Shown one piece after another: positions 89-35,977 of a DNA stretch of 36,090 nucleotides; position 1 is the stretch's first letter; the number at the start of each line of letters is the position of its first letter. The notes beneath the pieces are model-generated. The model was not told the DNA's origin and did not search any database. It saw nothing but the letters and a program-made list of their open reading frames with translations. The position numbers and the translations under genes are program-made. Origin of the DNA: Myxococcales bacterium (lineage in GTDB: Bacteria > Myxococcota > Myxococcia > Myxococcales > Myxococcaceae); assembly GCA_020846875.1 (NCBI GenBank), contig JADLDB010000196.1, positions 1 through 36,090 of the forward strand. The letters run 5' to 3'.

Positions 89-155
89 GGTGAGCGGTGT
101 AACGCATGGGGCTGACAACCGATTCTCCGACGAATAAATACCTGGAATTACATGC

Positions 156-2411: not shown

Positions 2412-3032
2412 CTAGCGCAGCCGTCGCGCGGGCACGCCCACCGCCGTGACGCCAGATTCAATCTGCTTGAGCACGACGGCCCCGCCCCCGATGGTGCAGT
2501 CGTCACCGACGGTCGCGAGGTGAAGCAGCGTCGCCCCAATGCCGATATGTGTGCGCGCCCCCACTCGTGCCCCGCCGCCAAGGGTTGCACTGGGAGAAAC
2601 GTGCGTGAAGTCGCCGATCACGCACTCGTGCTCGACGACGCTCGCAGTATTCAAGATGACGCCGGCGCCGACTCGCACTTCCGCGTTGACCACGGACATC
2701 GCCATCACGACGGTACCCGCGCCGAGCCGAGCTGTAGGCGACACCCAAGCCCGCGCGTGAACGGCGGTGAGCAGGGTGTGCCCTTGCTCAGTCAGCGCGG
2801 CCGCAACTCGCTCTCTGGCTCGGTTGCCACCGATGCCCAGTGCGACGACCCGAGGGGGTTGCCGCGCGAGCCAAGCGCCAGTTCCAAGAACAGGCAGCCC
2901 CAGCGCCTGCTTTTCAATCAGCTCGTTGTCGTCGACGAAGCCCTCCACGACCAGCCCGGCGGACTGCACCACCTCGGCGACGACCCGCCCATGGCCACCA
3001 GCACCGAAGACGAGGACAGGAAGAGAGGCCAC
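2412..3032 (-). CDS. pglD: PglD-like sugar N-acetyltransferase (left-handed beta-helix)
   Basis: A 206-aa protein read from a GTG at 3032. The open frame continues far upstream, but homology begins at LPVLVFGAGGHGRVV, directly after this GTG, and no ATG lies nearby. Residues 5-80 form a PglD-type Rossmann substrate domain with GAGGHG at 10-15 and GIGGN at 66-70. Residues from about 95 to the end are hexapeptide repeats of a left-handed beta-helix. The block VVEHECVIGDFTHVSP carries the equivalents of the PglD catalytic His (His135) and its neighbouring Glu136. The chain ends VGVPARRLR, as in PglD. The expected reaction is acetyl-CoA-dependent N-acetylation of the C4 amine made by the pglE-like enzyme. 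It heads the minus operon, with only 12 bp between its start and the divergent pglC-like start. Confidence 0.87.
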   Translation of the reverse strand: MASLPVLVFGAGGHGRVVAEVVQSAGLVVEGFVDDNELIEKQALGLPVLGTGAWLARQPPRVVALGIGGNRARERVAAALTEQGHTLLTAVHARAWVSPTARLGAGTVVMAMSVVNAEVRVGAGVILNTASVVEHECVIGDFTHVSPSATLGGGARVGARTHIGIGATLLHLATVGDDCTIGGGAVVLKQIESGVTAVGVPARRLR

Positions 3033-3044
3033 GTTCCGCAGTAT

Positions 3045-3671
3045 ATGGACGGCGTGACGCGGGAACAGCAACTGGCCGTGAAGCGCTTCGTTGACGTCCT
3101 GGGCGCAGCCACCGGGCTCGCCGTGACGGCGCCACTCATGGCGGCCGCCGCGCTGGCGATTCGCGCCAGCATGGGCGGGCCGGTGTTGTTCCGGCAGCAG
3201 CGCCCAGGGCAGGGCGGACGGCCCTTTCACGTGTACAAGTTCCGCACGATGTCCGACGCGCGCGACGGACGCGGCCAGCTCAAGGCTGACCACGAGCGCC
3301 TCACCGCGGTCGGCCGGTTCATTCGTGGGACCAGCCTCGACGAGCTGCCGCAGTTGCTGAACGTGTTGAAGGGCGAGATGAGCCTCGTCGGCCCGCGACC
3401 GCTGCTGATGCAGTACCTCGACCGCTACAACGCCCGGCAGGCGCGTCGCCACGACGTGAAGCCGGGCATCACCGGCCTGGCCCAGGTGCGCGGGCGCAAC
3501 GCGCTCAGCTGGGAAGAGAAGTTCGAGTACGACGTGCAGTACGTCGAAGGCTGGTCGCTGGGACTCGACGCCCGAATCCTGTTCGAGACGGTCAAGAAGG
3601 TGGTCCGGCGCGAAGGCATCTCGCAGCAGGGCCAGGCGACGATGACCGAGTTCATGGGGACGGAGGAGTGA
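3045..3671 (+). CDS. pglC: PglC-like initiating phosphoglycosyl transferase (monotopic)
   Basis: A 208-aa bacterial sugar transferase of the small, single-domain PglC type, which moves a phospho-sugar from UDP-sugar to undecaprenyl phosphate and so starts the repeat unit. After a Lys-Arg-rich start (VKRFVDVL) comes a hydrophobic stretch at about 17-41 that would form the re-entrant membrane helix. This is followed by [12 protein letters not shown] (63-74), [17 protein letters not shown] with the catalytic Asp99-Glu100 dyad, VGPRPLL and [13 protein letters not shown]. The MSD-x-RD and C-terminal GIS..GQ.T..EF pieces match PglC better than WecP/WbaP-type enzymes. The ATG at 3045 is chosen because it directly precedes the conserved N-terminus; in-frame GTGs at 3054 and 3078 are alternatives and no strong ribosome site singles one out. 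The next gene overlaps its stop (GTGA). Confidence 0.9.
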
Positions 3672-8114: not shown

Positions 8115-9147
8115 GGGCCCGGGCGCTGAGTCTCCACCAGACTCCCACTTATTCGACGTGCTGGCCAACCGGTCGGTGCAGGCCGGGGCTCCGTTCGGAG
8201 ACGCCCTGGCGGTGGCCGCCGCCCGCCACGGTGTGAGCGCGCTGGTCGCTGACGTCCTCGCGGCGAGGGGGGCGCCCATCCCCGACCAACTCGCGCGAGA
8301 CGCACGCGCACAGATCGCCCAGGGGCTCAAGACGAAGCGGCTCACCTTGCAGGTGCTCGACGCCCTGAGCGCCGAGGGCGTGACGCCCGTCTTGCTCAAG
8401 GGGTACGGCCTGGCGGTGCGGCTCTACCCCGAACAGCCCCTGGCGCGCCCGTCCACGGACGTCGACGTGTACGTGGACCTGGAGGAGCTTCCTCAAGTCG
8501 CCGCGGCGATGGCTCGGCTGGGCTTGAGTCGACACGATGATCCGGGTCTGGCTGACGTCTTCGAAGAGCACCACCACCTCTCCTTCGCCGGCGCGGCCGG
8601 GTTGGTGGAGGTGCACTTCAGGCTCATCGTCACGCTGGGCCGCGGTGGCTTCGACGATGTCTCGCTGCGCCGCCGGGCGCGCGACTACGTCCTCGACGGG
8701 CGCACCGCCCGCCTCCTCGACGAGGAAGACGAGTTTCTCTACCTGGCCACCCACGCGGCCAAGCACGCCTTCCTCCGGGTCTCCTGGCTGCTCGACCTCC
8801 AGCGATACCTGGCGCGGGCCACGGCCTTCGACTGGGCTCGCCTGGCCGAACGAAGCCGCGCCGCCGGTTTCCACACCGCTGTCGCGACGGCCCTCGAGCT
8901 CGTACAGCGCCTCCTCCGAGTGCCCCTGCTCGAGGACGCATGCAGGCACTTTCCCCAATCGAGGCTGCGAGGGGCCGTCGATCGCTGGCTCTTCTCGGCG
9001 GGCGCGGTGGCCTCCGCCCGCGTGTCCGATCATCGCCTGGGGGCCTTTCTGGTGCGGCTCTGGCTCGTCGACTCCCCCACACATGGAGTACGACACGTCT
9101 TCGACGGAGCGCGCCGGTTCGTCCGCCGGTTTCGCGCGGAGGAATGA
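8095..9147 (+). CDS. Nucleotidyltransferase-fold protein (NTP_transf_5-like, PF14907 type)
   Basis: A protein of up to 350 aa with the marks of the uncharacterised nucleotidyltransferase family found in polysaccharide and peptide-modification clusters. It has VLLKGYGLAVRLYP (about 99-112), then ARPSTDVDVYVD (117-128) with the D-x-D pair Asp122/Asp124 of the polymerase-beta fold. Further on are HHHLSFAG..GLVEVHFRL and FLYLATHAAKHAF, a helical C-terminal region typical of the family. The biochemical substrate is unknown for the family. GTG 8095, ATG 8101 and ATG 8113 are all possible starts and none has a good ribosome site. With the first, the 5' end overlaps that of the divergent membrane protein by 20 bp. 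It is followed immediately (TGA then TTG) by the O-antigen ligase-like gene, so the two are probably co-translated. Confidence 0.72.
   Translation: MKMKSSMGPGAESPPDSHLFDVLANRSVQAGAPFGDALAVAAARHGVSALVADVLAARGAPIPDQLARDARAQIAQGLKTKRLTLQVLDALSAEGVTPVLLKGYGLAVRLYPEQPLARPSTDVDVYVDLEELPQVAAAMARLGLSRHDDPGLADVFEEHHHLSFAGAAGLVEVHFRLIVTLGRGGFDDVSLRRRARDYVLDGRTARLLDEEDEFLYLATHAAKHAFLRVSWLLDLQRYLARATAFDWARLAERSRAAGFHTAVATALELVQRLLRVPLLEDACRHFPQSRLRGAVDRWLFSAGAVASARVSDHRLGAFLVRLWLVDSPTHGVRHVFDGARRFVRRFRAEE
9138..9143 (+). promoter_or_regulatory. Ribosome binding site for a TTG start
   Basis: GGAGGA lies 4 nt before TTG 9148, the only reasonable start for the 822-aa ligase/TPR frame. The nearby ATG at 9144 is in another frame. 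Confidence 0.55.
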
Positions 9148-11616
9148 TTGCCAGCTTCCGATCACAGCCGCTGGTGGTTGGCAGCCGAGGCCATGCTGGC
9201 GGCCGCGCTCGTGGCCTTGCCCTGGTCCTTCGGCGGGGCACCGGGGTGGGCTTTGTGGCTCGTCGTGGGCTGTGGCGCCGCCGCTCTCCTCCTCTGGGTG
9301 ACGGGAGCGTCGAGGAATCACCGGCGGTGGGGGCCCCACCTCGTCCTCGTGCTTCCGGGCGTGGCGCTCGCCATCGCGCTCCTCCAGTTGCTCCCGTTGC
9401 CTCCGGGCTTGCTCGCGCTCGTCTCCTCGCCCGCGGCCGAGCTCCGGGAGTTCGCCCTGGTCCCGCTGGGCCTGGAGAGGTGGCGCCCGGTGACGATGGA
9501 CGCACCCTCCACCGCGCGCGCCGTGGCGCGAATCATAGGCCTGGGCAGTATGGTCCTGGTGGCGCTCGAACTGGGGCGGCAGGGGCACGTGCGGCGCCGA
9601 CTGCTCTCGGTGCTGGCTCTGTCCGGGGTCTCTGTCGCGGTGTGTGGCTTCGGCCACCTGTTGGCCAATGCGGAGTCGCTGTTCGGCGTGCACCACTTCT
9701 ACGCCCCCGTCCCTCTCCTCACGCCGTTCGGGAACACCAACCACCTCGCGGCCTGGCTGACGCTCACCGGCACTGTCGCTCTGGGGCTGGCGCTGGACGC
9801 GAAGTCTCGCGACGGGGCGATCGGCTGGGGTGCGGCAGCCTTCGCGTGTGGCGTGGGCGTGTTCCTCTCGTACTCTCGGGGCGGCATCGGCACGTTTGTC
9901 GCGACCTGGGGCCTGGTGGGGGCGGCCGTGCTGGCGCGGAAGGGTGGAGGCATCCGCTCGGTGCTGCCGTGGGTGGCCATCGCCGCCACCGTGGCCTTCG
10001 CTGGCCTGTTGTCCTTCGAGCAGCTGCTCGCCCGCGCGGAGACGCTGAGCAGCGTGGAGAAGCTGCGCGCCACGAAGGTAGAGCTCTGGCCGATGCTCTG
10101 GCGCGGCGCGCTCGCCTATTGGCCGGTGGGGCTGGGCCTCGGCGCCTTCGAGCTCGGCTTCGCGCGCTTCCAGGACCAGCAGCTCGACGTCACCTTCACG
10201 CACCCGGAGAACCTGGTCCTGCAGTGGGCCAGCGAGGCGGGCCTCCCCCTCACTGTCATGCTCGGGGCGGTGGTCTTCGTCCTCTCTGTGCGGGTCCGGA
10301 GAAACACGTGGGAGCTCCCGCTCGAGCGTACGGCGATGATCGCGGTGGCGGGTGTGCTGCTCCACGACCTCTTCGACTTCTCGCTCGAGCTCAATGCGTT
10401 GGCAGCGGGGGTGGCCATCACGGCGGGCCTGGTGTGCGCGGTCGGTCGCGACACTGAGGGGCGGGTGGCCGTCCGACGCGCTGGACCGGTCGCGAGCGTC
10501 ACGCTGACGGCGGGGTCCCTGCTGGCGGCCTTGGCGGGGACCCCCGCGCATCCGGCCGCCGAGAAGGCGTTGGCGGGCGCGATCCAGAGCGGGCAGGGCG
10601 TGGAGACGGTGCGCGTCCAGGCGATCGCCGCCATCGACCGGCACCCCGCGGACTGGGTGCTGTACGCGAACGCAGGCGCCGAGATCGCGCGTCGCGGCCA
10701 GCCGCTGGAAGCGCTGGCCTGGGTCAATCGGCTGCTCTTCCTCCGCCCCGCTGACGCGCGCGCGCACATTGCCGCCGCGCAGGCGCTCATGCGCCTCGGG
10801 AAGTCGCGCCAGGCGCTCATCGAGCTCAAGACTGCGTGGGCCCTGGGCGACGTCACTTCGCTCGAGCTGGGGGTGAACATCGCCGCGAAGGAGGGGGTGT
10901 ACGATCGCGTCCTCCTCGACACCCGGGGGCACCTCACGGCGGTCTACCAGCTCCTCGCCGCTCGGGGGCGGCTCGACGAGGCGGGGCTGCTGCTCGAGGC
11001 GGCGGCCGACGCCCCTTTGTCCGAGGAGCTCCGGCCCGAGCTGGCATTCTTGCGGGTGTCGCACACCCTCGAGCTCGGCGACGCCGAGGGTGCGCTGGCG
11101 CGCTGGGGGGAGCTGCCCGAAGAGGAGCGTAAGAAGGCGGAGCTGACCATGGTGCGGGTCCAGGCGCTCCAGAAGCTGGGACGGCTCGACGAGGCGGCCT
11201 CGGAGCTGGAGAGCCTGTGCAACCGGGAGCCGGGAAACACCACCGCAGCCTTCGCCCTCGCCGAGTTGCTCGAAGGGACGCGGAAGCTCGCGGCGGCCCG
11301 GCAGGCGCTCGGGCGGATCCGGGCGCTCGCGTCGAGCCAGGACGTCCGCGCCAAGACGTTTCAGGCAGAGGCCCGCACCTGGATGTTGGAGGAGCGCTGG
11401 CCTCGGGCCCTGGATGCGCTGCAGACGGCTTCCCGCATCGAGCCGGGCCGGGCGGATCTGCACTACCGGATGGCTGAGGTCTACGAGCGCATGGGCAGCC
11501 TCCATTCGGCGCTGGACGAGGTCCGCCGGGGCCGCTTGCTGGACAGCCCCGACGGTGCAAAGACGCAGGATCCGTGGGTGGAGCGCCTCGAGAAGGCGCA
11601 GGCGGCCACGCCGTGA
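9148..11616 (+). CDS. O-antigen ligase/polymerase (Wzy_C) fused to C-terminal TPR domain
   Basis: An 822-aa protein. Residues 1 to about 450 are a polytopic membrane domain with Wzy_C/WaaL hallmarks: TPFGNTNHLAAWLTL (about 191-205), VFLSYSRGGIGTF (about 238-250) and FTHPENLVLQWASEAGLP (about 350-367). The last is the large periplasmic loop carrying the catalytic-type His. From about 490 onward the chain is a run of TPR-like helical pairs (A-W-x-x-R-L-L-F-L-R-P-x-D-A-R-A-H and LEEGNTTAAFALAEL-like units) to the end, predicted periplasmic. Such ligase-TPR fusions occur in glycosylation and exopolysaccharide systems, where they join a lipid-linked glycan to an acceptor or polymerise it. Which of these applies here is open. 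The start is TTG 9148 directly after the previous stop. The wzc-like kinase follows after a structured 91-bp gap. Confidence 0.85.
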   Translation: MPASDHSRWWLAAEAMLAAALVALPWSFGGAPGWALWLVVGCGAAALLLWVTGASRNHRRWGPHLVLVLPGVALAIALLQLLPLPPGLLALVSSPAAELREFALVPLGLERWRPVTMDAPSTARAVARIIGLGSMVLVALELGRQGHVRRRLLSVLALSGVSVAVCGFGHLLANAESLFGVHHFYAPVPLLTPFGNTNHLAAWLTLTGTVALGLALDAKSRDGAIGWGAAAFACGVGVFLSYSRGGIGTFVATWGLVGAAVLARKGGGIRSVLPWVAIAATVAFAGLLSFEQLLARAETLSSVEKLRATKVELWPMLWRGALAYWPVGLGLGAFELGFARFQDQQLDVTFTHPENLVLQWASEAGLPLTVMLGAVVFVLSVRVRRNTWELPLERTAMIAVAGVLLHDLFDFSLELNALAAGVAITAGLVCAVGRDTEGRVAVRRAGPVASVTLTAGSLLAALAGTPAHPAAEKALAGAIQSGQGVETVRVQAIAAIDRHPADWVLYANAGAEIARRGQPLEALAWVNRLLFLRPADARAHIAAAQALMRLGKSRQALIELKTAWALGDVTSLELGVNIAAKEGVYDRVLLDTRGHLTAVYQLLAARGRLDEAGLLLEAAADAPLSEELRPELAFLRVSHTLELGDAEGALARWGELPEEERKKAELTMVRVQALQKLGRLDEAASELESLCNREPGNTTAAFALAELLEGTRKLAAARQALGRIRALASSQDVRAKTFQAEARTWMLEERWPRALDALQTASRIEPGRADLHYRMAEVYERMGSLHSALDEVRRGRLLDSPDGAKTQDPWVERLEKAQAATP

Positions 11617-11707: not shown

Positions 11708-13879
11708 GTGTCTTCCACCTCCACCCAGACTGACGTGTTCGGCGGAGGAGGCGCAGACGCGCGCTTCTACCTGCGCGTCGTCCTGCGGAGGAAGTGGCTC
11801 ATCCTGCTCGTCTTCGCGGTAGTGGTCGCGGCGACGACGCTCTACACGACGCGCCAGCCGCGAGTGTACGCCGCGCAGATCTCGCTGATCATCGACCCCA
11901 AGGAGCCACGCTTTCTGGACGCGCAGATCCAGGACGTGAACAGCGACACCGGCTCCTACTACTGGGCCAACAAGGAGTACCTCGAGACCCAGTTCAAGAT
12001 CATCCAGAGCCGCGCGGTGTCGCAGCGGGTGGTCGAGAAACTGGGGCTCAACGCCGACGTCAACTTCCTCGGACTGGCGAAGCTGCAGGACGAGAAGCGG
12101 CGCCAGGAGCTCATGGCGCGAATCGACGCGGTGTCGATCCTCCAGGCGAAGATCAGGGTCGAGCCGGTGAAGGACTCCCGCGTTTCCCTGATCAAGATCG
12201 AAGACTCGGACCCGAACCGCGCCGCCCTGCTCGCGAACGAAGTGGCGCAGGCATACATGGACGAACTGCTGGCGCAGAAGCTCAAGCTGACCGAGAACGC
12301 GTCGAAGTGGCTCGACGAGCAGCGTGGCAGCCTGTCCGAGTCGGCGACCTCCAGTGAGATGGCCCTCTACACCTTCCGCAAGCAGGCGGACATTCTGGCC
12401 ATCGACGACCGGGCCAGCATGGTGTCACAGAAGCTGCAGGAGACGAGCAAGGCGCTCACCGACGTGCAGCTGAAGATCGCGGGCTTCAAGGCGCGCGTAG
12501 CGGCGATACGCAACGTCCAGGCGACGAAAGGGGCCGACGATCGCCTCTGGGCCGAGGCGCTGCCGGCCGCGCGTGAGAACGAGAACCTCAAGATGTTGAA
12601 GAATCGCCTCCACACGCTGAAGAACGAATGCACCGACCTCCAGTCCCGGTACCTCGACGGGCACCCCAAGCTCATGGAGTGCCGCGAGAAGCAGGCCGTC
12701 GCCGAGAAGGACGTGGAGCGCGAGTTGGCCAACCTCGTCCTCTCCACCGAGGCGGAGCTGAGGGAGGCCGTCGAGAAGGAGCGCAACCTGAAGGACCTCT
12801 TCGAGGGCGCCAAGGCGGAGGCCTTCGACCTCGAGAAGAAGAAGGTCGAGCTCGACAAGTTCAAGCAGGACGCGGACAACGCGAAGCGCCAGTACGAGTC
12901 GGTCTACAAGCGGCTCAAGGACATCGAGCTGTCGGGCGCGCTGCGTACGTCCAACGTGAAGGTGTTGGACTCCGCTCGGCCGTCGATGGCGCCCATCCGC
13001 CCCAACGTCCCTCAGGGTGTGCTGATGGGGATCATCGCCGGGCTCATCCTGGGCCTGGGGTTGGCCCTGTTGCTCGAGTTCCTCGACTCGTCGATCTCCT
13101 CGCAGAACGAGGTGGAAGAGCGGCTGGGGCTGACTTTTCTGGGCTTCGTGCCGACGATCCCCGAAACCCCCAGCGGCCTCAAGGACCTCCACGTCTTCCG
13201 AGAGCCGAAGTCGCTCATCGCCGAGTGCACTCGCGCGGTGCGGACGAACCTGCTCTTCATGTCACCCGACAAGCCCTTCAAGCGCATGCTGGTGACCTCC
13301 AGCGGCCCGCAGGAAGGCAAGTCCACCACGGTCATCAACCTGGGCATCACCATGGCCCAGAGCGGGAACCGGGTGCTGATCATCGACACCGACATGCGCC
13401 GTCCGCGCCTCCACCGCGCCTTTGGCGTGCCGAACGACGTCGGCGTGTCTTCGGTGGTGGTGGGTGAGGGCAGGCCCGAGGACGCGATCAAGTCCACCGA
13501 GGTGCCCGGCCTTTTCGTGCTGTCGTGTGGGCCGGTCCCACCGAACCCCGCAGAATTGTTGCACACCAAGGCCTTCTCGGACCTGCTCAGCCAGTTGGGG
13601 GAGAAGTTCGATCGGATCCTCCTCGACAGCCCGCCGGTGGGAGCGGTGGCCGACGCGGTGGTGCTCGCCACGCAGGTGGACGGGGTGGTGATGGTACTGA
13701 AGGCCGGTCAGACGCACCGCGAGGTGGCGCAGCGCACGGTGAAGGCCCTCCGCGACGTGAAGGCCAACATATACGGTGCGGTGCTCAACGACGTGAACCT
13801 CGAGAAGTCGAAGTACGGTGACTACTACTACGGTTACGCGTACCGCTACTACGGCGAGGGAGAGAAGAAGGGTGCGTGA
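11708..13879 (+). CDS. wzc: Wzc-type polysaccharide co-polymerase / BY-kinase tyrosine autokinase
   Basis: A 723-aa inner-membrane protein. It has a Wzz N-terminal domain with TM1 at about 29-46, a periplasmic coiled-coil-rich region (about 200-400), a GNVR-like piece ending VLDSARPSMAPIRPNVP, and TM2 at about 437-457. The cytoplasmic kinase follows: Walker A SSGPQEGKST (531-540), Walker A' VLIIDTDMRRP (556-565) and Walker B ILLD (637-640). The tail contains eight tyrosines between 703 and 715 (YGDYYYGYAYRYY), the usual autophosphorylation cluster. In capsule and EPS systems this protein sets chain length and couples polymerisation to export through a Wza channel. Start is GTG 11708 with only a weak GAGACGAG upstream. 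No cognate Wza or low-molecular-weight phosphatase is in this window. It ends 28 bp before a convergent glycosyltransferase gene. Confidence 0.94.
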   Translation: MSSTSTQTDVFGGGGADARFYLRVVLRRKWLILLVFAVVVAATTLYTTRQPRVYAAQISLIIDPKEPRFLDAQIQDVNSDTGSYYWANKEYLETQFKIIQSRAVSQRVVEKLGLNADVNFLGLAKLQDEKRRQELMARIDAVSILQAKIRVEPVKDSRVSLIKIEDSDPNRAALLANEVAQAYMDELLAQKLKLTENASKWLDEQRGSLSESATSSEMALYTFRKQADILAIDDRASMVSQKLQETSKALTDVQLKIAGFKARVAAIRNVQATKGADDRLWAEALPAARENENLKMLKNRLHTLKNECTDLQSRYLDGHPKLMECREKQAVAEKDVERELANLVLSTEAELREAVEKERNLKDLFEGAKAEAFDLEKKKVELDKFKQDADNAKRQYESVYKRLKDIELSGALRTSNVKVLDSARPSMAPIRPNVPQGVLMGIIAGLILGLGLALLLEFLDSSISSQNEVEERLGLTFLGFVPTIPETPSGLKDLHVFREPKSLIAECTRAVRTNLLFMSPDKPFKRMLVTSSGPQEGKSTTVINLGITMAQSGNRVLIIDTDMRRPRLHRAFGVPNDVGVSSVVVGEGRPEDAIKSTEVPGLFVLSCGPVPPNPAELLHTKAFSDLLSQLGEKFDRILLDSPPVGAVADAVVLATQVDGVVMVLKAGQTHREVAQRTVKALRDVKANIYGAVLNDVNLEKSKYGDYYYGYAYRYYGEGEKKGA

Positions 13880-13886: not shown

Positions 13887-13913
13887 GCCTGAGGGGGGGA
13901 AGCACCCTCAGGC
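13887..13913. terminator. Candidate bidirectional terminator hairpin between convergent genes
   Basis: A perfect 9-bp stem, GCCTGAGGG (13887-13895) with CCCTCAGGC (13905-13913), with a 9-nt loop. It lies just after the wzc-like stop and includes the stop codon of the convergent glycosyltransferase. There is no T-tract, so any termination would be of a non-canonical GC-rich type. Confidence 0.5.
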
Positions 13914-14963
13914 CGCCATGGCCTTCGGCGCCAGCCTTCGGAGCACCTCGAGGTACCTCGGCAGAACCGATCTCACCGAATAGTGGGCGACAACGTGGGC
14001 CCTGCCCGCAACCCCCATCGCCGGCAGATTCCCCCGTACCAGTTCTTCGAGCTTCGCGCCCCAGTCCTCGTTTGGCTGCACCATCAGCCCGGCGCCGCTT
14101 CCCGCGAAGATGTCGACATTGGCGCCCACGGCGCTGCTCAACACCGGCACGCCGACGGACATGTACTGGATCATCTTGAAGCCGCACTTCCCGCGGGTCT
14201 GCTCGCTGTCCAGCAGCGGCATCAGGCCCACGTCGAACGACTGCAGAGCGCGCAGCTCGCCGGGCTTATTCCAGCGCCACTGCTCCACGAGCGGGTGCCG
14301 GGCGTACTCGGGAAGGAACCCGTTCGACACGATGCGCAGCCTCGCCCTGGGCCTCCGTGCGATGCGCTCGAGGAGCGACGGGATGACCGGGCGCAGGAAC
14401 GGGAAGTTCGACGCGGTTCCCATCCACCCCACGACGAGCCCGGACGGGCGACGGTTGCCTGGGGGCCGGGGCACGCACGCGTCGGTGTCGACCACGGTGG
14501 GGATGACGCTGGTGCGCTCGGGGGCGTTGACGACGCGCGCGAGGTGCTGGTTGCCGGGCACCAGGTGGTCCGCGGCGGCGACCGCCTGGTTGAAGGTCAG
14601 CTGCCGCAGCCGGCTCTCGACGCCGTCGACGCCCAGGTAGATGGCGTCGTCGAAGTCGAACACGATGGGGGTGCTGCGCCGCGCGCGGAGCCACTCGGGC
14701 AGCCCGGTGAGCGCGAAGGCCGTCTTGTGCAGGTAGAGAACGTCGTAACCGCGGTCGAAGAGGAGGTGGGCGCTGCGCACCAGTCGGCCCCGCAGCTTGT
14801 AGAGATCGCCCCACGGCTTGTCGAAGACGTCGTTGTAGCGCTCGTCGTAGGCGAAGCGGACGTCGCAGCGAACGCCGAGCCGCTCGAAGTGCGGGAAGAA
14901 CTGCAGGCAGCGGAAGCGGCTGCCGGGGCTCAGCGGGCCATCAGTGAAGAAGAGGACTCGCAC
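13908..14963 (-). CDS. Glycosyltransferase, GT4-like
   Basis: A 351-aa protein read from GTG 14963, beginning MRVLFFTDGPLSPGSRFRC. Conserved blocks are VFDFDDAIYLG (about 99-109), VIPTVVDTDA (about 153-162), VVGWMGTASN (about 176-185) and FDVGLMPLLDSEQTRGKCGFK (about 248-268). The last is the donor-binding part of a GT-B fold. It is a paralogue of the glycosyltransferase at 156-1247, so the two probably arose by duplication and took different linkages. It is the last gene of the minus operon, 7 bp after the asparagine-synthase paralogue. Its stop codon sits in the hairpin shared with the wzc-like gene. Confidence 0.87.
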   Translation of the reverse strand: MRVLFFTDGPLSPGSRFRCLQFFPHFERLGVRCDVRFAYDERYNDVFDKPWGDLYKLRGRLVRSAHLLFDRGYDVLYLHKTAFALTGLPEWLRARRSTPIVFDFDDAIYLGVDGVESRLRQLTFNQAVAAADHLVPGNQHLARVVNAPERTSVIPTVVDTDACVPRPPGNRRPSGLVVGWMGTASNFPFLRPVIPSLLERIARRPRARLRIVSNGFLPEYARHPLVEQWRWNKPGELRALQSFDVGLMPLLDSEQTRGKCGFKMIQYMSVGVPVLSSAVGANVDIFAGSGAGLMVQPNEDWGAKLEELVRGNLPAMGVAGRAHVVAHYSVRSVLPRYLEVLRRLAPKAMAA

Positions 14964-14970: not shown

Positions 14971-16911
14971 TCAGGTACTCCGCTGGGCCTCGGCCCAGGC
15001 CTTGAACATCAGGATGTCCCAGAGGTGGTACTCCCAGGAGCGGCGACCGTTCAGCAGTTCGTCCCAGCGGGCACGGATGAGCGGTGTGTTGAAGCCGTAG
15101 GCGTCGAGGCGCGCTGGCGTCAGCAAGGCTTCCGCCCAGTCGCGCAGGGGCCCCCGCAGCCAGGTGCCCAGGGGCACGCCGAAGCCCATCTTGGCCGACG
15201 AGATGATGCCCGGCGGCACGTAGCGGGCGAGGACCTGCCGGAGGATCCACTTGCCGGTTCCTCCGCGCACCTTCAGGTGCAGCGGCAACCTCCAGGCGAA
15301 GGCGAAGACGCGGTGATCGAGCAGCGGCTCGCGGGCCTCCAGGCTGACGGCCATGGAGGCCCGATCCACTTTGGTGAGGATGTCATCGGGCAGGTACTCC
15401 AACGTGTCGCGCAGCATCATCTCTTCGGCCACGCTGCCGCCCTTGTCGCGCACCAGTGGCGTCGGGCCGAGCCCACTCGGCCGCGGCTCGTCGAGCAACA
15501 CGCGGTCCGCGGGGAGCCAGTGACTCGCGAGCAGGGCGTGCATGTGCTCGGGGCTGGCCGTGTCGAGCACCGACGCCGCCTTGTGGAGGCGCAGCCCGGG
15601 CAGGCGCATCACCGGCAGCACCCGGCGGGTGCGATCGAAGAACGAGTCCCACTCCCCGGGTGAGCGCGAGGTGATGAGGCTAGCCAGCGCGGCGCGGAGG
15701 GCGCGTGGCAGCCGGCGCTCGACATCCCAGAGGCGGGGGCCCCAGAGGTGGCGGGTGTAGCCTCCGAAGTACTCGTCACCGCCGTCACCCGACAGCGCCA
15801 CGGTGACGTCCCGCCGCGCCAGCCGTGAGACGAGGAAGGTGGGGATCTGCGACGAGTCGGCGAAGGGCTCGTCGTACATCGTCGGCAGCAGCGGGATGAC
15901 GTCGAGCGCGTCCTTCGCGGTGACGGTGAAGGCCGTGTGGTGGGTGTTGAGGTGCCGTGCCACCGCCCGCGCGGCGGTCCCTTCGTCGAACGCGGCCGTT
16001 TCGTTCTCGATGGAGAAGGTGAGGACCGGGCGATCGCTCTGCGCCTGCATCAGCCCCACCACCGTGGAGGAGTCGACCCCGCCTGACAGGAACGCGCCCA
16101 AGGGGACGTCGGCGACCATGCGTAGCTTGACGGCATCTCGCAGCAGCGAATCGAGCTCGTCGATTGCTTCCGCCTCCGTGCCGGGGAAAGGCGTGGCGAG
16201 CCCCTCGCGAGCCACGGCCACGGGATCCCAGAAGCGGGTGACGCGCGGCGGGCGATCGGGCGCCGAGAAGGAGAGGATCGAGGCTGGCGGCGCGCGCCGG
16301 GTCCCCGCGTAAATCGAGGTCTCACCGGGGACGCAGTTGGCGCGCAGGAAGCCGGCCAGTGCCGCGCGGTCAAGGGTGGTGTCGAACCCGGGGAAGTGGC
16401 GCAGCGCCTTCAGCTCGGAGGCGAAGGCGAGTCCATGGGCGGTGCGGGTCCAGTACAGCGGCTTGATGCCGAGGCGATCGCGCACCAGGTGCAGGGCGCA
16501 CTCGCGCGTGTCAGCCAGGGCGAAGGCGAACATGCCGACGAAACGGGTGACGGCGGGCTCGAGCCCCCAAGCCTCGATACACGCGAGCATCACTTCGGTG
16601 TCAGACGTGCCCCGCCAGGCGGGCGCGCGGCCCTCCCGCTCGAGCGCTTCGCGGAGCTGTCGGTAGTTGTAGACCTCGCCGTTGAAGGCGATGACGAAGC
16701 GGCCTGACGCCGAGGCCATCGGCTGGTGGCCGGTGGCGGAGAGGTCGACGATGGACAGCCGGCGGTGGCCGAACGCGAGGCCGGTGTCGTCGCGCCACGT
16801 GCCGGAGTCGTCGGGGCCACGGTGGGCGAGCGCTCCCGTCAACTCCGAGAGCAGCTTCTCGGACGTCGGCCGGTCCAGAGATGGGGCCCAGAGGCCGGTC
16901 ACGCCGCACAT
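14971..16911 (-). CDS. asnB: AsnB-like glutamine-dependent amidotransferase (paralogue 1)
   Basis: A 646-aa two-domain enzyme. The N-terminal class II glutaminase domain starts MCGVTGLW with the nucleophile Cys2 exposed after Met removal, followed by LAHRGPDDSG (about 28-37), GHRRLSIVD and FNGEVYNYRQLR. The synthetase domain has the ATP-pyrophosphate loop VPLGAFLSGGVDSST (about 254-268) and VALSGDGGDEYFGGY (about 360). Start ATG 16911 is fixed by the need for Cys2; an open frame upstream is not used. In sugar clusters such enzymes are known or proposed to amidate uronic acids (WbpS-type) rather than make asparagine. Here it lies between a lipoprotein gene (35 bp) and a glycosyltransferase (7 bp). 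It is one of three paralogues in the window. Confidence 0.9.
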   Translation of the reverse strand: MCGVTGLWAPSLDRPTSEKLLSELTGALAHRGPDDSGTWRDDTGLAFGHRRLSIVDLSATGHQPMASASGRFVIAFNGEVYNYRQLREALEREGRAPAWRGTSDTEVMLACIEAWGLEPAVTRFVGMFAFALADTRECALHLVRDRLGIKPLYWTRTAHGLAFASELKALRHFPGFDTTLDRAALAGFLRANCVPGETSIYAGTRRAPPASILSFSAPDRPPRVTRFWDPVAVAREGLATPFPGTEAEAIDELDSLLRDAVKLRMVADVPLGAFLSGGVDSSTVVGLMQAQSDRPVLTFSIENETAAFDEGTAARAVARHLNTHHTAFTVTAKDALDVIPLLPTMYDEPFADSSQIPTFLVSRLARRDVTVALSGDGGDEYFGGYTRHLWGPRLWDVERRLPRALRAALASLITSRSPGEWDSFFDRTRRVLPVMRLPGLRLHKAASVLDTASPEHMHALLASHWLPADRVLLDEPRPSGLGPTPLVRDKGGSVAEEMMLRDTLEYLPDDILTKVDRASMAVSLEAREPLLDHRVFAFAWRLPLHLKVRGGTGKWILRQVLARYVPPGIISSAKMGFGVPLGTWLRGPLRDWAEALLTPARLDAYGFNTPLIRARWDELLNGRRSWEYHLWDILMFKAWAEAQRST

Positions 16912-16946: not shown

Positions 16947-18929
16947 TCAGGGGCGAATGAAGACCCACCCGTCTCCGCCCGCCTCGCCGCTCTCGGACGT
17001 GAAGCCAACGCCGCCCAGCCCTCCGCCCACGAAGATGTTCCCGCGAGTGGTGAGGGTGGGGGTGCCCCCATCCTGCGCCGTGACGTAGACGCGCCCGCCG
17101 CCTCCACCTCCGCCTCCACCCGCCCGCGCGCCCACCAGGTTGACCCAGGCTCCGCCGCCCCGGCCGCCGACCGCCGAGATGGCCCCGCGGTTGTCGAAGC
17201 GGTCGACAGCGAAGAAGACCGTCCCGCCGGCGCCTGCGCCACCGCCGCCGCTGTTGGTGTAGAAGCCGCCCGCGTTCTCACCCGGGGCACCGTCCGCGAA
17301 GACGGCGCCCTCGTTGACGAAGCCCGCCGCCTGCAGCACGAGCACGCCGGCCCCTGCTCCGCCCGTGCCCTGGCAAGCCTCGGCCGCGAACGAGACGTCT
17401 GCCTTCCCTGCCGAGCCGCCACCGCCTCCACCCTCCGTTGGTACGGACGAGGGGCCAACCAACGCGGCCCCGCCCGCACCGCCATCAGTACTCGCACCGG
17501 CGTAGAGGCCCGCGCCTCCTCGGCCTCCCCGCCCACCGTTGGCTCCCCCTCCGCCCCCGGCCAGGGAGCCACCTCCCCCACCCCCTGAGGGTGCGCCGCC
17601 GGCCGCTGGGACAGAGCATGGGCAGGAACAACCGTCGGCACCGTTGGCAGCACCTGGGCCGCCGGCGCCGGGGCGCGGCTGGGTGAGGAGTGGACCGCAG
17701 TGTCCCCCCTGGCCGCCCGCCCCGCCGTTGGCCCCGCCGCCCGCGCCCCCCACGCCCGCGGCCGTCGCGCTGGCACAGGCCGCCGAGCCACCGCCCGAGT
17801 AGGCCGGCGCCTGGGGCGTCTGGAGGAAGATCCGCGCGTCTTGCCCAATCATCGCGGTGCCGGCCACGCCGATGCGAGCGCGGTTGGCGAGCACCCTGGC
17901 TTGATCCGCCAAGGTGAAGTCCCCGCCCGTCTGCACGACGGCGTCCGGTGACAGCTCGAGCGTTCCGGTCGCCTCGACGCGCAGCCAGTTGCGTGTGCGG
18001 AGCGTCATGCCGCTGGCTACGCTCAATCGCCCGGCGCTGCCGACGACCAGGCATTCGTACTCCGCGAGCGACCCGGTCAGCGAGAGGAGGTTGGAGATGG
18101 TGACGATGGGTGGTGCGGTGCAGGACTGCCACAGGCCCACGTTGCAGGTCTCGCTCCCGGAGCCGCACGCGTTGTCGCAGCGCCGGCTCTGCCCGTCGAC
18201 CGTGCCGTCGCAGTCGTCGTCACGGGCGTTGCAGGACTCGAGCGCGGCGGGGTTCACGTCGGCACGGGAGTCGTCGCAGTCTCCGGTCACCAGGGTGAAC
18301 CCCGAGGCAGGCAACTGGCAGGCGAGCAGGCTGTTGGCCGGGTCCCCGTAGCCGTCCCCGTCGGCGTCGCGGAAGTACCGGGTCCTGACGTCCTCGTCCG
18401 ACTCACCATCGCAGTCGTTGTCGCGGTTGTCGCAGACCTCCACGCGCCCGGGAGAGCTGGTCGAGTCCACGTCGTTGCAGTCGCCGTCCATGGGGACGAA
18501 GCCCACCGGGGCCGAGCAGCCGTCGACGAAGAGGGCGCCGTTCCCGTAGCCGTCGTGATCCTGGTCGGCGAAGAAGCGTACCGCCGCGGCCTTGTCCACC
18601 TCACCGTCGCAGTCGTTGTCCTTCTCGTCGCACACCTCGGCGGCGCCCGCGAAGATGGCGGCGTCGTCGTTACGGCAGTCGTCGCACGAGTGCCTGTCTC
18701 CGTCAGCGTCCGCGCACCCGCAGTGCCCGGCCTCGACGGCCCCGCAGCGCTGGGGGGCAGGGCAGTCCGCGTCGGCCCGGCAGAAGCTGCAGACCTCGTC
18801 CAGACAGACCAGCCCCGGGTCGCACTCGCTGGTGGCCGTGCAGGCCTGCACTTTGGGAGGTCTGTTGGGACAGGCGGTAAGGACGAGTGCGGCGACCGCC
18901 AGGGAGACCGAGAAGGGGTGGTGCCTCAT
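16947..18929 (-). CDS. Lipoprotein with MopE-type metal-binding repeats and long Gly-rich domain
   Basis: A 660-aa secreted lipoprotein. Its 20-residue signal peptide ends in the lipobox LTAC (Cys20), and GAGGAG just before ATG 18929 supports the start. Residues 26-75 are Cys-rich (CTATSECDPGLVCLDEVC and similar). Residues 74-245 hold three units of the MopE/putative metal-binding pattern (D-x-D-x-D-G-x-G ... CD-x-x-DNDCDGE-x-D), which in MopE binds copper and in relatives probably calcium. Residues 270-375 look beta-rich (TGTLELSPDAVVQ..GDFTL). Residues 376-612 are a Gly/Ala-dominated tract with isolated Cys. Such composite proteins are typical of Myxococcota, and the function is unknown. 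It is embedded between a GT4 (40 bp upstream) and an asnB paralogue in an otherwise glycan-synthesis operon. It should sit in the outer membrane or on the surface. Confidence 0.85.
   Translation of the reverse strand: MRHHPFSVSLAVAALVLTACPNRPPKVQACTATSECDPGLVCLDEVCSFCRADADCPAPQRCGAVEAGHCGCADADGDRHSCDDCRNDDAAIFAGAAEVCDEKDNDCDGEVDKAAAVRFFADQDHDGYGNGALFVDGCSAPVGFVPMDGDCNDVDSTSSPGRVEVCDNRDNDCDGESDEDVRTRYFRDADGDGYGDPANSLLACQLPASGFTLVTGDCDDSRADVNPAALESCNARDDDCDGTVDGQSRRCDNACGSGSETCNVGLWQSCTAPPIVTISNLLSLTGSLAEYECLVVGSAGRLSVASGMTLRTRNWLRVEATGTLELSPDAVVQTGGDFTLADQARVLANRARIGVAGTAMIGQDARIFLQTPQAPAYSGGGSAACASATAAGVGGAGGGANGGAGGQGGHCGPLLTQPRPGAGGPGAANGADGCSCPCSVPAAGGAPSGGGGGGSLAGGGGGANGGRGGRGGAGLYAGASTDGGAGGAALVGPSSVPTEGGGGGGSAGKADVSFAAEACQGTGGAGAGVLVLQAAGFVNEGAVFADGAPGENAGGFYTNSGGGGAGAGGTVFFAVDRFDNRGAISAVGGRGGGAWVNLVGARAGGGGGGGGGRVYVTAQDGGTPTLTTRGNIFVGGGLGGVGFTSESGEAGGDGWVFIRP
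17094..17804 (-). repeat. Gly-rich low-complexity coding tract
   Basis: This part of the lipoprotein gene encodes about 237 residues dominated by Gly and Ala in runs such as GGAGGGANGGAGG and AGGGGGGGGGR. On the plus strand it reads as CCN/GCC-rich low-complexity DNA. It is degenerate at the DNA level and is not a regular tandem array. Confidence 0.7.
18195..18710 (-). repeat. Three MopE-type protein repeats in the lipoprotein
   Basis: Protein repeat units end in CDEKDNDCDGEVD (residues 100-112), CDNRDNDCDGESD (166-178) and CNARDDDCDGTVD (233-245). Each is preceded by a D-x-D-G-D/D-G-Y-G acidic loop and a GD-C-x-D motif. Asp and Cys positions are kept in all three, consistent with metal binding plus disulfides. 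Confidence 0.8.
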
Positions 18930-18969: not shown

Positions 18970-20187
18970 TCAACCAGAAAGCGATCGCACCAACTGCTCG
19001 TACCGGTCGAGGCCCGTCGCCAGGGAAAAGTGAGCCCGCGCTCGCTCTCGCGCTTCGCGGTTGGGTCCGGCTGGCGCGGCGGCAAGGACGTCGGCTGCTG
19101 CGTCGAGGGCCACGTCGGACACGGAGTCAAGGACCAGCCCTGCGCCGGCGCGCGACACCCACTCTCCCACCTCGCGGTTGCAGCCGTGGACGCAGACGCG
19201 GACGCCGCTGGCGAAGAACTCGGCGAGCTTGGTTGGCATCATGGCGGTCTTGGCCTTCGTCTCCGGGGTCAGCAGCAGCACGCCCCACGTCATGAGGTTC
19301 ATCCAGAAGGGGATGGCCTCGTGGTCGACCCGAGTGATGGTCAGCCGGTCCTCAGGCACTCCCTCCGCCGCGAAGGCCTGTGTCCAGTCTTTGCGCTGCG
19401 CGGTCAGCACGAGCACCTGGGCCTGGGGCGAACGCGCGAGGACCCGTGCCGCGAGGCGAGCCGTCTCCCGGCCCAGGTAGGCCCGGTTGAGCGAGCCCAC
19501 CACGCCCAACACCAGCCGGCCCTTCAGTTGCTCGATGATCTCGTGGGGCACTCGGCCCAGCTCGTCGGGCCTGCGCGGGTGAAACTCGTCAAAGTCGGCG
19601 CAGGTCGGGATCACCACGACGGGCCCGCGAGGCTGCCCGAAGTCACCTCGACGCACGTCGTCCGCCTGAAGCCCCGTCAGGGTGACGACGGCCGAGGCTC
19701 GGGAGAAGAGGCGACGCTCGACCGCCCGCGCCACCTTTAGCCGGGCGGGGGTGGTGAACCAGCGGCCTTCCTCGAGGCGCTCGTCGATCCAGTACCCGCG
19801 CGCGTCGAAGATCCACCGGCGGGCAAGGGTCGTCTGGAGGCCGAGCGCGACGACCCCGGCGTGGTAGGCCCGGGCGTGGAGCAGCACGGATCGATGGCGC
19901 AGCACCTGCTGGGTGGCGATGGCCGAGAGCCGCCCCATGTTCTCGGCGACTGCGGCAGGGCTGCCCCCTTCGCGGTACACCCCCCATCGCCAATGGATGC
20001 CGGCCTTCCGGGCGCGGTCCTCGACCTCGGCGAGGCGGGCCTTGTCTTCGAGATCGCGTTGGCGCTCGATGGAGACGAGCGCATAGGGTAGGCCGCGGTT
20101 GGAGAGTCCCTCGATGACCCGGAAGACCTGGCTGAAACCCAGGTGGCTCAGGATCCCCTCGATGCTCAAGTACAGGACAGGTCTCAT
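18970..20187 (-). CDS. Glycosyltransferase, GT4-like
   Basis: A 405-aa GT-B protein starting MRPVLYLSIEGILSHLGFSQVFR, a form in which the loop after the first beta strand has GI..HLG instead of the usual G-G. Later blocks are IFDARGYWIDERLEEG (about 138-153), VVVIPTCADFDEFHP (about 203-217), VLGVVGSLNRAYLG (about 246-259) and LLLTPETKAKTAMMPTKLAEF (about 329-349), where the donor-binding Glu would lie. The ATG at 20187 is chosen because homology starts there; the frame is open further upstream. It heads the four-gene minus operon with the lipoprotein, asnB and a second glycosyltransferase. A 72-bp gap separates it from the divergent ketoisomerase gene. Confidence 0.85.
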   Translation of the reverse strand: MRPVLYLSIEGILSHLGFSQVFRVIEGLSNRGLPYALVSIERQRDLEDKARLAEVEDRARKAGIHWRWGVYREGGSPAAVAENMGRLSAIATQQVLRHRSVLLHARAYHAGVVALGLQTTLARRWIFDARGYWIDERLEEGRWFTTPARLKVARAVERRLFSRASAVVTLTGLQADDVRRGDFGQPRGPVVVIPTCADFDEFHPRRPDELGRVPHEIIEQLKGRLVLGVVGSLNRAYLGRETARLAARVLARSPQAQVLVLTAQRKDWTQAFAAEGVPEDRLTITRVDHEAIPFWMNLMTWGVLLLTPETKAKTAMMPTKLAEFFASGVRVCVHGCNREVGEWVSRAGAGLVLDSVSDVALDAAADVLAAAPAGPNREARERARAHFSLATGLDRYEQLVRSLSG

Positions 20188-20679: not shown

Positions 20680-21998
20680 CGGCGAAGGCGGCACCGGGTG
20701 GGATGTCACTGTTGCGTACCTCGGCGCTCGCCGCAGTGAGCACCGCCATCAAGGTGAGCACGGCCTTCATCAGCGTCAAGGCCATTGCCTGGTTCGCGGG
20801 ACCCGAGGGGCTGGCGAAGCTGGGGCAGCTGAGCAACGTCATCTCTGTCGTCACCATCGTCGCGGGCGGAGGCATCTTCGGCGGGGTGACCAAGTACGTG
20901 GCGGAGTACCGCGCCGCGGGCAAGAGCCTCGGGCCCCTGGTCGCGACCAGCGTCGCGCTCATCCTCGCCTGCTCGGTGGGCGCGGCGCTCCTGCTCGGGG
21001 GCAGCGCGTGGTTCGTTGCAGCCCACGTCCTGGGCGACGGCTCCTACTGGCAGCTCATCCTGCTCCTGGCGCTCCTCACCGGCTTCGTGGCCGGGAACAA
21101 CCTGCTCACCTCGCTGCTCAACGGGCACAAAGACATCGGGCGGCTGACGAGGGTGAATGTCACGACCAGTCTCGCGGGGGTGGTGCTCACCGTGGCGCTG
21201 GTGTGGGCGATGGGCGTGCAGGGAGCCCTGCTGGCGCTGATCGTCACGCCGGTGGCCACGTTCCTCGGGGCGGTGCTCCTGGTCCGGCGCACGGAGTGGT
21301 GGCCGCTGCTCAAGCAACGCCCCCGCTTCGACAGAGGCGAGCTCAAGGGGCTGTCGCGCTTCACCGCGATGAGCGTCACAACGGCGGTGTGCGGCCCGGT
21401 GGCGATGATCGTCCTGCGGGACTACCTGGCCGCCCACGCTTCCTGGCAGGAGGTGGGCTACTGGCAGGGAGTGTGGAAGATCTCCGAGGTGTACCTGATG
21501 GTGGCGACGCTCTCGATCTCGACCTACTTCCTTCCGCGGCTCTCGGAGCTGAAGGACCCCGCGGAGCTGCGGCGCGAGATCCTGCAGGGCTACAAGACGC
21601 TCTTGCCGCTGGTGGCGCTCACCGCGGCGGGCATCTTCGTGTTCCGCACGCTGCTCATCAGGCTCCTCTTCGCGCCTGGCTTCGAGCCCATGGAACACTT
21701 CTTTCTGTTCCAGCTCATCGGCGACTTCTTCAAGATTGGCTCCTGGGTGGTGGCCCACCTGATGCTGGCGAAGGCGACCACGCGTCTGTTCATCATCTCG
21801 GAAATCGTCTTCTCCGGCGCCTTCGTCGGCTGGTCGCTTTTCTTCGTGAAGCACTTCGGCGCGGTGGGCGTCACCTACGCGTTTGCCTTGAACTACCTCA
21901 CGTACTGGATCTTCATGGCGTGGGTCTTCCGGGACTACCTCGTCGCGCAGAAGCGGAGCCCCGCGGCCGCTCCGCAGTCGGAGGCCACGCATGGATGA
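20676..21998 (+). CDS. wzx: Wzx-type lipid-linked oligosaccharide flippase (MATE/MOP superfamily)
   Basis: A 440-aa integral membrane protein with about twelve hydrophobic segments and a typical Wzx opening, SLLRTSALAAVSTAIKVSTAF, followed by GPEGLAKLGQLSNV. Mid-chain it has GLSRFTAMSVTTAVCGPVAMI and VWKISEVYLMVATLSISTYFLPRLSEL, both characteristic of O-antigen translocases of the WzxE/polysaccharide export group. It would flip undecaprenyl-linked repeat units to the periplasm. GTG 20676 is chosen because a GAGGG lies 5 nt upstream and it overlaps the fdtA stop as GTGA. ATG 20703 is the alternative. The following methyltransferase ATG overlaps its 3' end by 8 bp. Confidence 0.92.
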   Translation: MTAKAAPGGMSLLRTSALAAVSTAIKVSTAFISVKAIAWFAGPEGLAKLGQLSNVISVVTIVAGGGIFGGVTKYVAEYRAAGKSLGPLVATSVALILACSVGAALLLGGSAWFVAAHVLGDGSYWQLILLLALLTGFVAGNNLLTSLLNGHKDIGRLTRVNVTTSLAGVVLTVALVWAMGVQGALLALIVTPVATFLGAVLLVRRTEWWPLLKQRPRFDRGELKGLSRFTAMSVTTAVCGPVAMIVLRDYLAAHASWQEVGYWQGVWKISEVYLMVATLSISTYFLPRLSELKDPAELRREILQGYKTLLPLVALTAAGIFVFRTLLIRLLFAPGFEPMEHFFLFQLIGDFFKIGSWVVAHLMLAKATTRLFIISEIVFSGAFVGWSLFFVKHFGAVGVTYAFALNYLTYWIFMAWVFRDYLVAQKRSPAAAPQSEATHG

Positions 21999-26587: not shown

Positions 26588-27544
26588 TCATCGCGCGGCG
26601 ACCTCGCGAAAATGCGCCTCGAGGCGGGCCGGCATCGCCGCGCTCGTCGAGAGGACGAGGTTCGCCTGCTCTCCCTGGCCCGAGCGCAGCGACTCGAGGG
26701 GATGGTCCACGGCCGCTGGTTCCTCCAGGGACGGCACGCGCCAGGCGCGATAGCCACACTGCTCGAGCAGTCCCACCGCTCGCGAGACGGTCGCCTCCCT
26801 GCCACGCGTCCACGTCGGGGTCCACTCGAGCACCAGGTCCGGCCGGAGCCGCGACAGGGTCTGTTCGCCGCCGGCGAGCACGTCCGGCTCGAAGCCCTCC
26901 ACATCGATCTTCAGGAGATCCGGCTCGAGCCCCCGCTGCGCGACGAGCTGATCGAGCGTCACCGCGTCGACCTCGATCGTCTCCACCGCCTGCGCTTCGG
27001 GTCGAGCCACCGCGGAAGTGAAGCCGGAGTCGTCACCCGCGAAGGCGAAGAGCTTCAGCGTGCCGGGCAGCGACGCGACCGCGAGGTTGACTGGCCTCAC
27101 CCGAAGCAGCGGGTTGAGCTGGGTGTTCGCCGCCAGCCGCGCGAAGGTTCGCGGGTGCGCCTCGACGGCCGTCACCTCACAGCCCGGCGCGCGGGCCGCC
27201 GTGCGCAGCGAATAGATGCCCACGTTGGCCCCCACGTCGATGAGGCAGCGGCTTTCCTGGGAGAGGCAGGACAAGCTCTCGAAGTTGGGGTCAAGCCAGC
27301 CGAAGTAGTGCACCCACTGGATGAACTCGTGGGGGAAGAGGTCCAGTCGAACGCCCCCAACCACGACGTGTCGCACGTCCTGCGGGTCGAACTGCCCCGG
27401 CTGAGGGAGCAGATGAGCCAGGCCCTGCTGGATGCGGCGCGGCGACTGCCACATTGCCCGGCGGAGCGCCCTCTCGGTCACACCACCCCGAATGCGGGCA
27501 CGAACACGGTGCAGCAGGTCCCTCAGCAGGCCACGGGTGCTCAT
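26588..27544 (-). CDS. FkbM-family SAM-dependent methyltransferase
   Basis: A 318-aa protein. After an about 90-residue N-terminal region it has the FkbM signature: CLIDVGANVGIYSLRTAA (about 98-115), VTAVEAHPRTFARL, NLAVASLPGTLKLF and DLLKIDVEGFEPDVLAGGE (about 211-229). The family O-methylates sugars and polyketides, so a glycan O-methylation role is likely. ATG 27544 overlaps the asnB stop (ATGA), indicating coupling. An in-frame ATG at 27565 with a GGTGG upstream is an alternative that would add seven residues. It is the last gene of the five-gene minus operon. Confidence 0.88.
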   Translation of the reverse strand: MSTRGLLRDLLHRVRARIRGGVTERALRRAMWQSPRRIQQGLAHLLPQPGQFDPQDVRHVVVGGVRLDLFPHEFIQWVHYFGWLDPNFESLSCLSQESRCLIDVGANVGIYSLRTAARAPGCEVTAVEAHPRTFARLAANTQLNPLLRVRPVNLAVASLPGTLKLFAFAGDDSGFTSAVARPEAQAVETIEVDAVTLDQLVAQRGLEPDLLKIDVEGFEPDVLAGGEQTLSRLRPDLVLEWTPTWTRGREATVSRAVGLLEQCGYRAWRVPSLEEPAAVDHPLESLRSGQGEQANLVLSTSAAMPARLEAHFREVAAR

Positions 27545-30557: not shown

Positions 30558-31510
30558 CGCACCTGCCCCTCGGCCTCGAGCCAGGCACAGAGGTCGCTCA
30601 CCGCTGACTCGAAGCTGCGGCGCGGCGCGTAGTCGAGCAGCTCGCGCGCCTGGGTGAGGTCGGCCATGGTCGCGTCCACGTCCCCCTTCTGCATCGGTGT
30701 GTGCTCGATGATGGGCTCGACGCCCAGCTGCCTGGCGATGCTGCGGACCATCTCCAGCAGGCGCACTGGCTTGCCCGCTCCCAGGTTCACGACGTGGTAG
30801 CCCCGCGCGCGGTCGAGCGCGGCCACCACTCCGTCGACGATGTCGAGGACGTGCGTGTAGTCCCGCTCGGACGAGCCATCGCCGAACAAAGTGATGCGCT
30901 CGCCCGCGGCGATCTTCTTCGCGAACTTGTGGATGGCGAGATCCGGCCGCTGCCGGGCGCCCACGGCGGTGAAGAAGCGCAGGCAGATCACGTTCAGCCC
31001 GTGGAGGTGGTGCGCGGTGAAGCACTGCAGCTCGCCGGCCCGCTTGCTCGCGGCATAGGGTGAGAGAGGCCTGTCGGCGCCGAGCGCCTCTCGCGAGGGT
31101 CGAGGCGAGTCATTGCCGTACACCGAAGACGAGGACGCGAACACCAGCCGCGTCACGCCGGCCTGGGCGCAGGCGTCGAGGACGCTCTGGGTGCCTTCCA
31201 CGTTGTTCTGCATGTACCACCGAGGGCGCTCGACGGACGGTCGCACCCCGGCCCAGGCCGCGAGGTGCACGACGGCTTCGACGTGGTGCCGGGCGAGGGT
31301 GTCGCGGAGCACGGCCTCGTCACGAATGTCGCCGCGCACCAGGGCGAAGGCGGGGTGGCCTTGCACGCCGGTCAGGTTGCGCTCCTTGCGCTGCGGCGCG
31401 TAGAAGTCATTGAAGTTGTCCAGCACCACCACCCGGTCCCCGCGCGCGAGGAGGGCCTCCGTCAGGTGGGAGCCGATGAAGCCTGCGCCTCCGGTGACGA
31501 GCACGGTCAT
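30554..31510 (-). CDS. NAD-dependent epimerase, UDP-glucuronate 4-epimerase-like
   Basis: A 318-aa extended SDR. It has VTGGAGFIGSHLTEALLARG (5-24), the UDP-GlcA-epimerase-like LDNFNDFYAPQRKERNL (30-46), HLAAWAGVRPSVE (82-94) and FASSSSVYG (124-132). The catalytic YAASK follows (Tyr152, Lys156), then CLRFFTAVGARQRPDLAIHKF, which resembles the GP-x-GRPDMA signature of UDP-glucuronate 4-epimerases. It probably converts UDP-GlcA, made by the Ugd encoded about 2 kb away, to UDP-GalA; UDP-glucose epimerase or dehydratase activity cannot be excluded. ATG 31510 overlaps the upstream asnB stop (ATGA), and its own stop overlaps the GT4 start. Confidence 0.87.
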   Translation of the reverse strand: MTVLVTGGAGFIGSHLTEALLARGDRVVVLDNFNDFYAPQRKERNLTGVQGHPAFALVRGDIRDEAVLRDTLARHHVEAVVHLAAWAGVRPSVERPRWYMQNNVEGTQSVLDACAQAGVTRLVFASSSSVYGNDSPRPSREALGADRPLSPYAASKRAGELQCFTAHHLHGLNVICLRFFTAVGARQRPDLAIHKFAKKIAAGERITLFGDGSSERDYTHVLDIVDGVVAALDRARGYHVVNLGAGKPVRLLEMVRSIARQLGVEPIIEHTPMQKGDVDATMADLTQARELLDYAPRRSFESAVSDLCAWLEAEGQVR

Positions 31511-35933: not shown

Positions 35934-35977
35934 GCTTCAAAATCCGTCCGTGCTATGGCCATCCAGGAAGGGGACGC

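Follow-up and report, generated by a model that had tools for sequence, protein, structure and literature searches.

The swarming and multicellularity of myxobacteria depend on secreted polysaccharides, and the BPS polymer of Myxococcus is reportedly not retained by the cell. What might a lipoprotein contribute when its gene lies among the genes for such a polymer? The question is raised by the window, that is, the whole stretch of 36,090 nucleotides analysed here (contig JADLDB010000196.1 of a Myxococcales bacterium), in which a gene for a predicted surface lipoprotein sits between two polysaccharide biosynthesis genes.

A lipoprotein gene within a BPS-type locus

The genes on which the argument rests are, in order along the window:

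2520..3671 (+), initiating sugar-phosphate transferase (Bac_transf)
9148..11616 (+), Wzy/O-antigen-ligase-like polymerase with C-terminal TPRs
11708..13879 (+), Wzc with fused tyrosine kinase (PCP-2A, BPS type)
13908..14963 (-), GT4 glycosyltransferase GT4c, closing the minus-strand run 7 bp after asnB1
14971..16911 (-), asnB-like amidotransferase asnB1
16947..18929 (-), MopE-repeat/beta-solenoid/Gly-rich lipoprotein, 660 aa (ATG at 18929, TGA at 16947)
18970..20187 (-), GT4 glycosyltransferase GT4d, adjoining the lipoprotein gene here and convergent with it in five relatives
20703..21998 (+), WzxE-like flippase (NF011679, E 1.5e-85, 288 bits, below the cut-off of 325)

Several GT4s, a DegT aminotransferase, a Polysacc_synt_2 protein, acetyltransferases, a methyltransferase and a UDP-sugar dehydrogenase complete the picture. 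In Myxococcus, the BPS pathway is defined by a Wzx, a Wzy and a Wzc of the PCP-2A class to which a tyrosine kinase is fused (PMC7310880). Like the BPS locus of Myxococcus xanthus (WzcB, WzyB, WzxB), the window unites a fused-kinase PCP-2A Wzc (Wzz, GNVR and AAA_31 in one protein), a Wzy (with Wzy_C) and a Wzx (the WzxE-like flippase). By gene content it is a BPS-type Wzx/Wzy locus, a classification that does not imply that its polymer is BPS. Its Wzc shares ~51-58% identity with the best Wzc in many other genomes of the family. The locus differs from that of M. xanthus in the lipoprotein gene itself, for which no counterpart turned up close to Wzc in the Wzc loci that were sampled in other genera. 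The window also encodes three asnB-like amidotransferases (14971-16911, 27541-29403 and 31507-33420) and, between Polysacc_synt_2 and NTP_transf_5, a 539-aa open reading frame (6780-8399, -) that matches nothing in Pfam or NCBIfam and is conserved at 41-68% in several relatives.

The first-pass annotation had delimited exactly this gene and placed it inside a Wzx/Wzy locus, with 40 bp separating it from the stop codon of the GT4 (18970) and 35 bp from the start of asnB (16911); both the spacing and the placement hold, and the linkage extends to relatives. The frame shows no stop or frame problem, its ATG is preceded by GAGGAG, and its GC3 is 0.86. Dismissing the Gly-rich part as a non-coding GC artefact is ruled out by its low dN/dS and by the conserved cysteines of the protein, and the gene is a real coding frame. 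Random insertion or misassembly is likewise rejected, because in three genera the orthologues are found in loci of this kind.

Domain architecture, constraint and candidate metal

The protein is divided as follows:

18870..18929 (-), signal peptide and lipobox LTA|C, residues 1-20, lipobox cysteine C20, mature N-terminus CPNRPPK
18681..18869 (-), Cys-rich N-terminal region, residues 21-83, every Cys invariant
18192..18680 (-), three PF11617 MopE-type Asp/Cys repeats, residues ~84-246, E 3e-23
17820..18125 (-), short beta-solenoid, residues 269-370, AF2 single-sequence pLDDT ~80
16950..17801 (-), Gly-rich C-terminal domain, residues 377-660, 36% Gly and 16% Ala
17049..17588 (-), AgmC-like Gly module, residues 448-627, partial match to NF047640 (38.5 bits)

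Three elements of this architecture had been recognised in the first-pass annotation. The lipobox (LTA-C20) is confirmed, with VLTAC at residues 16-20 as expected of a bacterial lipoprotein carrying a signal peptide, a lipobox and a Cys. The three metal-binding-type repeats correspond to PF11617 (Cu-binding_MopE; 82.2 bits over three stretches, against a gathering cut-off of 27). The Gly-rich tract is present too, at ~285 rather than the proposed ~240 residues. The lipobox Cys is found in all orthologues that have an N-terminus, although the strict consensus is seen in only 2 of 7 sequences, those of the window and G025.

Structure prediction is uneven along the chain. With 28 aligned sequences the MopE region is modelled by AF2 at pLDDT mostly above 90; Foldseek against the PDB finds no match to this model at E <= 0.001, and a sequence search of the PDB gives no useful relative of the lipoprotein. 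Modelled from the single sequence, residues 269-660 have a mean pLDDT of 42.9, the solenoid alone being confident and the Gly domain falling below 50. The strands of the solenoid also appear in the 28-sequence model. PDB matches to beta-solenoid proteins are weak, and the structure matches cover mainly this part, the best being tapirin, whose Z of 5.4 is too weak to interpret.

All 33 of the 33 cysteines are invariant among five orthologues at ~55% identity, and dN/dS (Nei-Gojobori) is 0.05-0.35 in every domain, the Gly tract included (0.05-0.17 among close relatives and ~0.31 between the window and G056). The lipoprotein is under purifying selection.

Which metal might the repeats bind? The protein resembles PF11617 proteins in having three repeats, located in its N-terminal half, but differs in that these are joined to a beta-solenoid and a Gly-rich end and lack the conserved His and Trp of the copper site. 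In MopE, Cu(I) is held by two His and a kynurenine derived from Trp (PMC3423442). No such site is found in residues 81-265 of the five orthologues, which share 31 invariant Asp and contain one His at most, neither His nor Trp being conserved. Since the repeats lack conserved His and Trp and are so rich in invariant Asp, Ca2+ is likelier than Cu as their ligand, and in the proposed metal binding calcium takes the place of the family's copper as the candidate. That the protein handles copper at the surface, like MopE of Methylococcus, is suggested by the name of the Pfam family but is at odds with the missing His and Trp, and is highly improbable.

The location of the protein is less easily read. 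In Myxococcus, Lys at +2 marks lipoproteins for the inner membrane and Ala at +7 for the extracellular matrix (PMC3222651). The mature N-terminus of the window protein (CPNRPPK) has neither, which leaves the outer membrane as the default assumption; the protein would most likely sit on the surface of that membrane. The G056 and G049 orthologues carry Ala at +7, and release to the extracellular matrix is therefore possible there.

Distribution, synteny and an alternative version of the locus

Orthologues occur in 7 of 58 genomes of the family, in three genera (g1, g5 and g14), at 53-59% identity. They are full length in the window genome, G056, G025, G049 and G035, and split by contig ends within the Gly tract in G004 and G013; the remaining matches listed in family genomes cover the MopE repeats. 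Beyond the family, a five-sequence profile finds nothing past E 1e-60 in a sample of 99 order-level genomes, and nothing past E 1e-50 in one of 117 phylum-level genomes. PF11617 repeats as such are widespread in myxobacterial proteins, and as a control, the MopE-repeat matches listed in the closed genomes G007, G022, G037, G048 and G050 are not near Wzc.

Every orthologue is adjoined by polysaccharide genes (Wzc, Wzy, asnB, GT4). The gene row of G004 reads Wzy-Wzc-GT4c-asnB1-asnB3-GT4d-lipoprotein, with the other half of the gene on another contig behind Wzx-like and membrane-GT-like genes (named by eye from their sequences). In G025 a single gene separates lipoprotein and Wzc, and in G035 the two lie ~26 kb apart on the same contig. 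Orientation varies: the lipoprotein gene and GT4d point in the same direction in the window, whereas in G056, G049, G035, G004 and G013 they stand tail-to-tail, with ends within ~15 bp or overlapping. The first-pass annotation had called for gene order to be compared in related genomes; linkage is retained in seven genomes of three genera, but the run GT4-lipoprotein-asnB as an operon is confined to the window genome. Because GT4d is convergent in five relatives, co-transcription is not what keeps the pair together. The pairwise identities of lipoprotein and GT4d track each other (r 0.95, 15 pairs), as would be expected of co-inheritance. The association is not strict: five genomes (G054, G047, G001, G039 and G042) have GT4d but no lipoprotein gene, and G025 has the lipoprotein gene but no GT4d. 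For G054 and G042 absence rests on genome-wide searches, since the contig ends soon after GT4d.

A second version of the locus is found in the same assembly. Contig C195 shares with the window contig (C196) its first 127 bp at 100% and its last 157 bp at 99% identity (window positions 1-127 and 35934-36090), and contig C42, which continues from the right end of the window, terminates in the window's last 127 bp. This 36-kb version encodes a Wzc with 93% amino-acid identity and has related genes from DegT to asnB, a different second half, and no lipoprotein gene. Most simply, C195 and C196 are alleles of a single polysaccharide locus whose sequences meet in a mixed assembly; they may instead be two copies in one genome. 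Most Wzc loci of the family lack the lipoprotein gene, as do C195 and, within genus g5 (where 5 of 7 genomes have it), G042 and G061; it is an accessory gene, dispensable for this type of locus.

Such a distribution gives substance to the main rival explanation, in which the gene is accessory cargo of an often-recombining polysaccharide locus, comparable to capsule or O-antigen switching, and encodes a surface function apart from the polymer, e.g., prey or kin recognition or adhesion. The patchiness in genus g5 and the lack of the gene in C195 fit this well. So does its frequent position at the edge of the locus in relatives, where it borders an Rpn/transposase-like gene in G056 and G049, and where G042 has the end of a similar gene after GT4d, at the place the lipoprotein would occupy (all named by eye, not by profile). 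However, no full-length orthologue turned up away from polysaccharide loci in the genomes searched, and in three genera, at 55% identity, the gene has remained with the locus even where its surroundings were rearranged. Such hitchhiking is possible, though on balance rather unlikely. The Rpn/transposase-like genes (by eye) have variable Gly/Arg/Glu repeats and lie at the locus edge near the lipoprotein gene or GT4d (L044 4481-5782, L046 9348-12215 and L214 7068-7412).

Possible roles of the lipoprotein

The reading preferred here is that the exported lipoprotein binds, retains or organises the co-encoded polymer or acts as a co-produced adhesin, a proposal with roughly an even chance of being correct. 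The lipid at C20 would serve as the anchor, and the Cys-rich region with the three Asp/Cys repeats would form a stalk, probably rigidified by Ca2+ and disulfides, that carries the short beta-solenoid and then the Gly-rich AgmC-like domain as the exposed end. Its gene is an accessory part of BPS-type Wzx/Wzy loci, present in a few genera within a single myxobacterial family. Conserved linkage, export signals, low dN/dS, acidic ligands and a precedent from Vibrio argue for such a role, in which the anchoring by lipid, the place at the surface, Ca2+, disulfides and contact to the polymer are conjectural. Against it weigh the dispensability of the gene for this type of locus, the five genomes that have GT4d alone, the strict lipobox in no more than 2 of 7 sequences and the weak structure matches of the solenoid. 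Of the earlier interpretation, the lipoprotein signal, the repeats, the Gly tract and the linkage have stood and the conserved operon has fallen; anchor, receptor or adhesin are still plausible functions.

The precedent concerns arrangement. In Vibrio cholerae, the genes for matrix proteins, rbmA-F, lie between the two vps operons, vpsA-K and vpsL-Q (PMC4741415). Like the lipoprotein, if it is exposed as predicted, RbmA, RbmC and Bap1 are secreted or surface proteins whose genes accompany those for the exopolysaccharide, an analogy of arrangement and not of membership. They are built from other domains than the lipoprotein (FnIII, beta-propeller). The first-pass annotation held that such lipoproteins are not normal parts of Wzx/Wzy loci; given the Vibrio genes, the arrangement is unusual rather than unprecedented. 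Among open-access papers, the architecture in such a locus appears new, while co-encoded matrix proteins are known as a kind. A search of that literature for MopE with myxobacteria and glycine-rich found nothing.

A bolder form of the proposal, and an unlikely one, is that these proteins are a new family, restricted to one lineage, of lipoproteins that tether the polymer by means of a MopE stalk stiffened with Ca2+, a solenoid and a Gly-rich tip. In some myxobacteria they would keep at the surface a BPS-type polysaccharide that is otherwise shed. A lipoprotein that is conserved in such loci of other genera is a single-gene candidate for holding or sensing polymer at the surface, and may hint at what the abundant MopE-repeat proteins of these genomes are used for.

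The lipoprotein could instead face the periplasm and aid transit of the polymer. It is a predicted lipoprotein of a Wzx/Wzy locus, no OPX (Poly_export) gene is recognised among the window proteins scanned, and in myxobacterial systems with truncated OPX proteins a periplasmic distance is left unfilled (PMC9603273). Yet most family loci of this type lack the gene and presumably still export, the protein has no homology to known export parts, and its Gly-rich tip is more like an exposed adhesin-type module than part of a channel. A role in export or assembly is quite improbable.

The Gly-rich tip has relatives of its own. One module aligns to positions 239-405 of the 412-position AgmC_N model of the adventurous gliding motility protein AgmC, but only partially and at 38.5 bits against a cut-off of 275 (NF047640, an equivalog domain); otherwise the lipoprotein is a different protein and no AgmC. 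The open-access search for AgmC with M. xanthus found nothing. The Gly domain also resembles one module of a 1650-aa protein of the same genome, on contig C94. That the similarity reflects composition only is ruled out by a shuffle control on this module, which scores 36.7 bits with the C-terminal profile, against at most -0.4 for 300 shuffles and at most -0.9 for 300 block shuffles. The C94 paralogue itself is an open frame (L216 4480-9431, -) with several AgmC-like Gly-rich modules, and scores below the NCBIfam AgmC cut-off.
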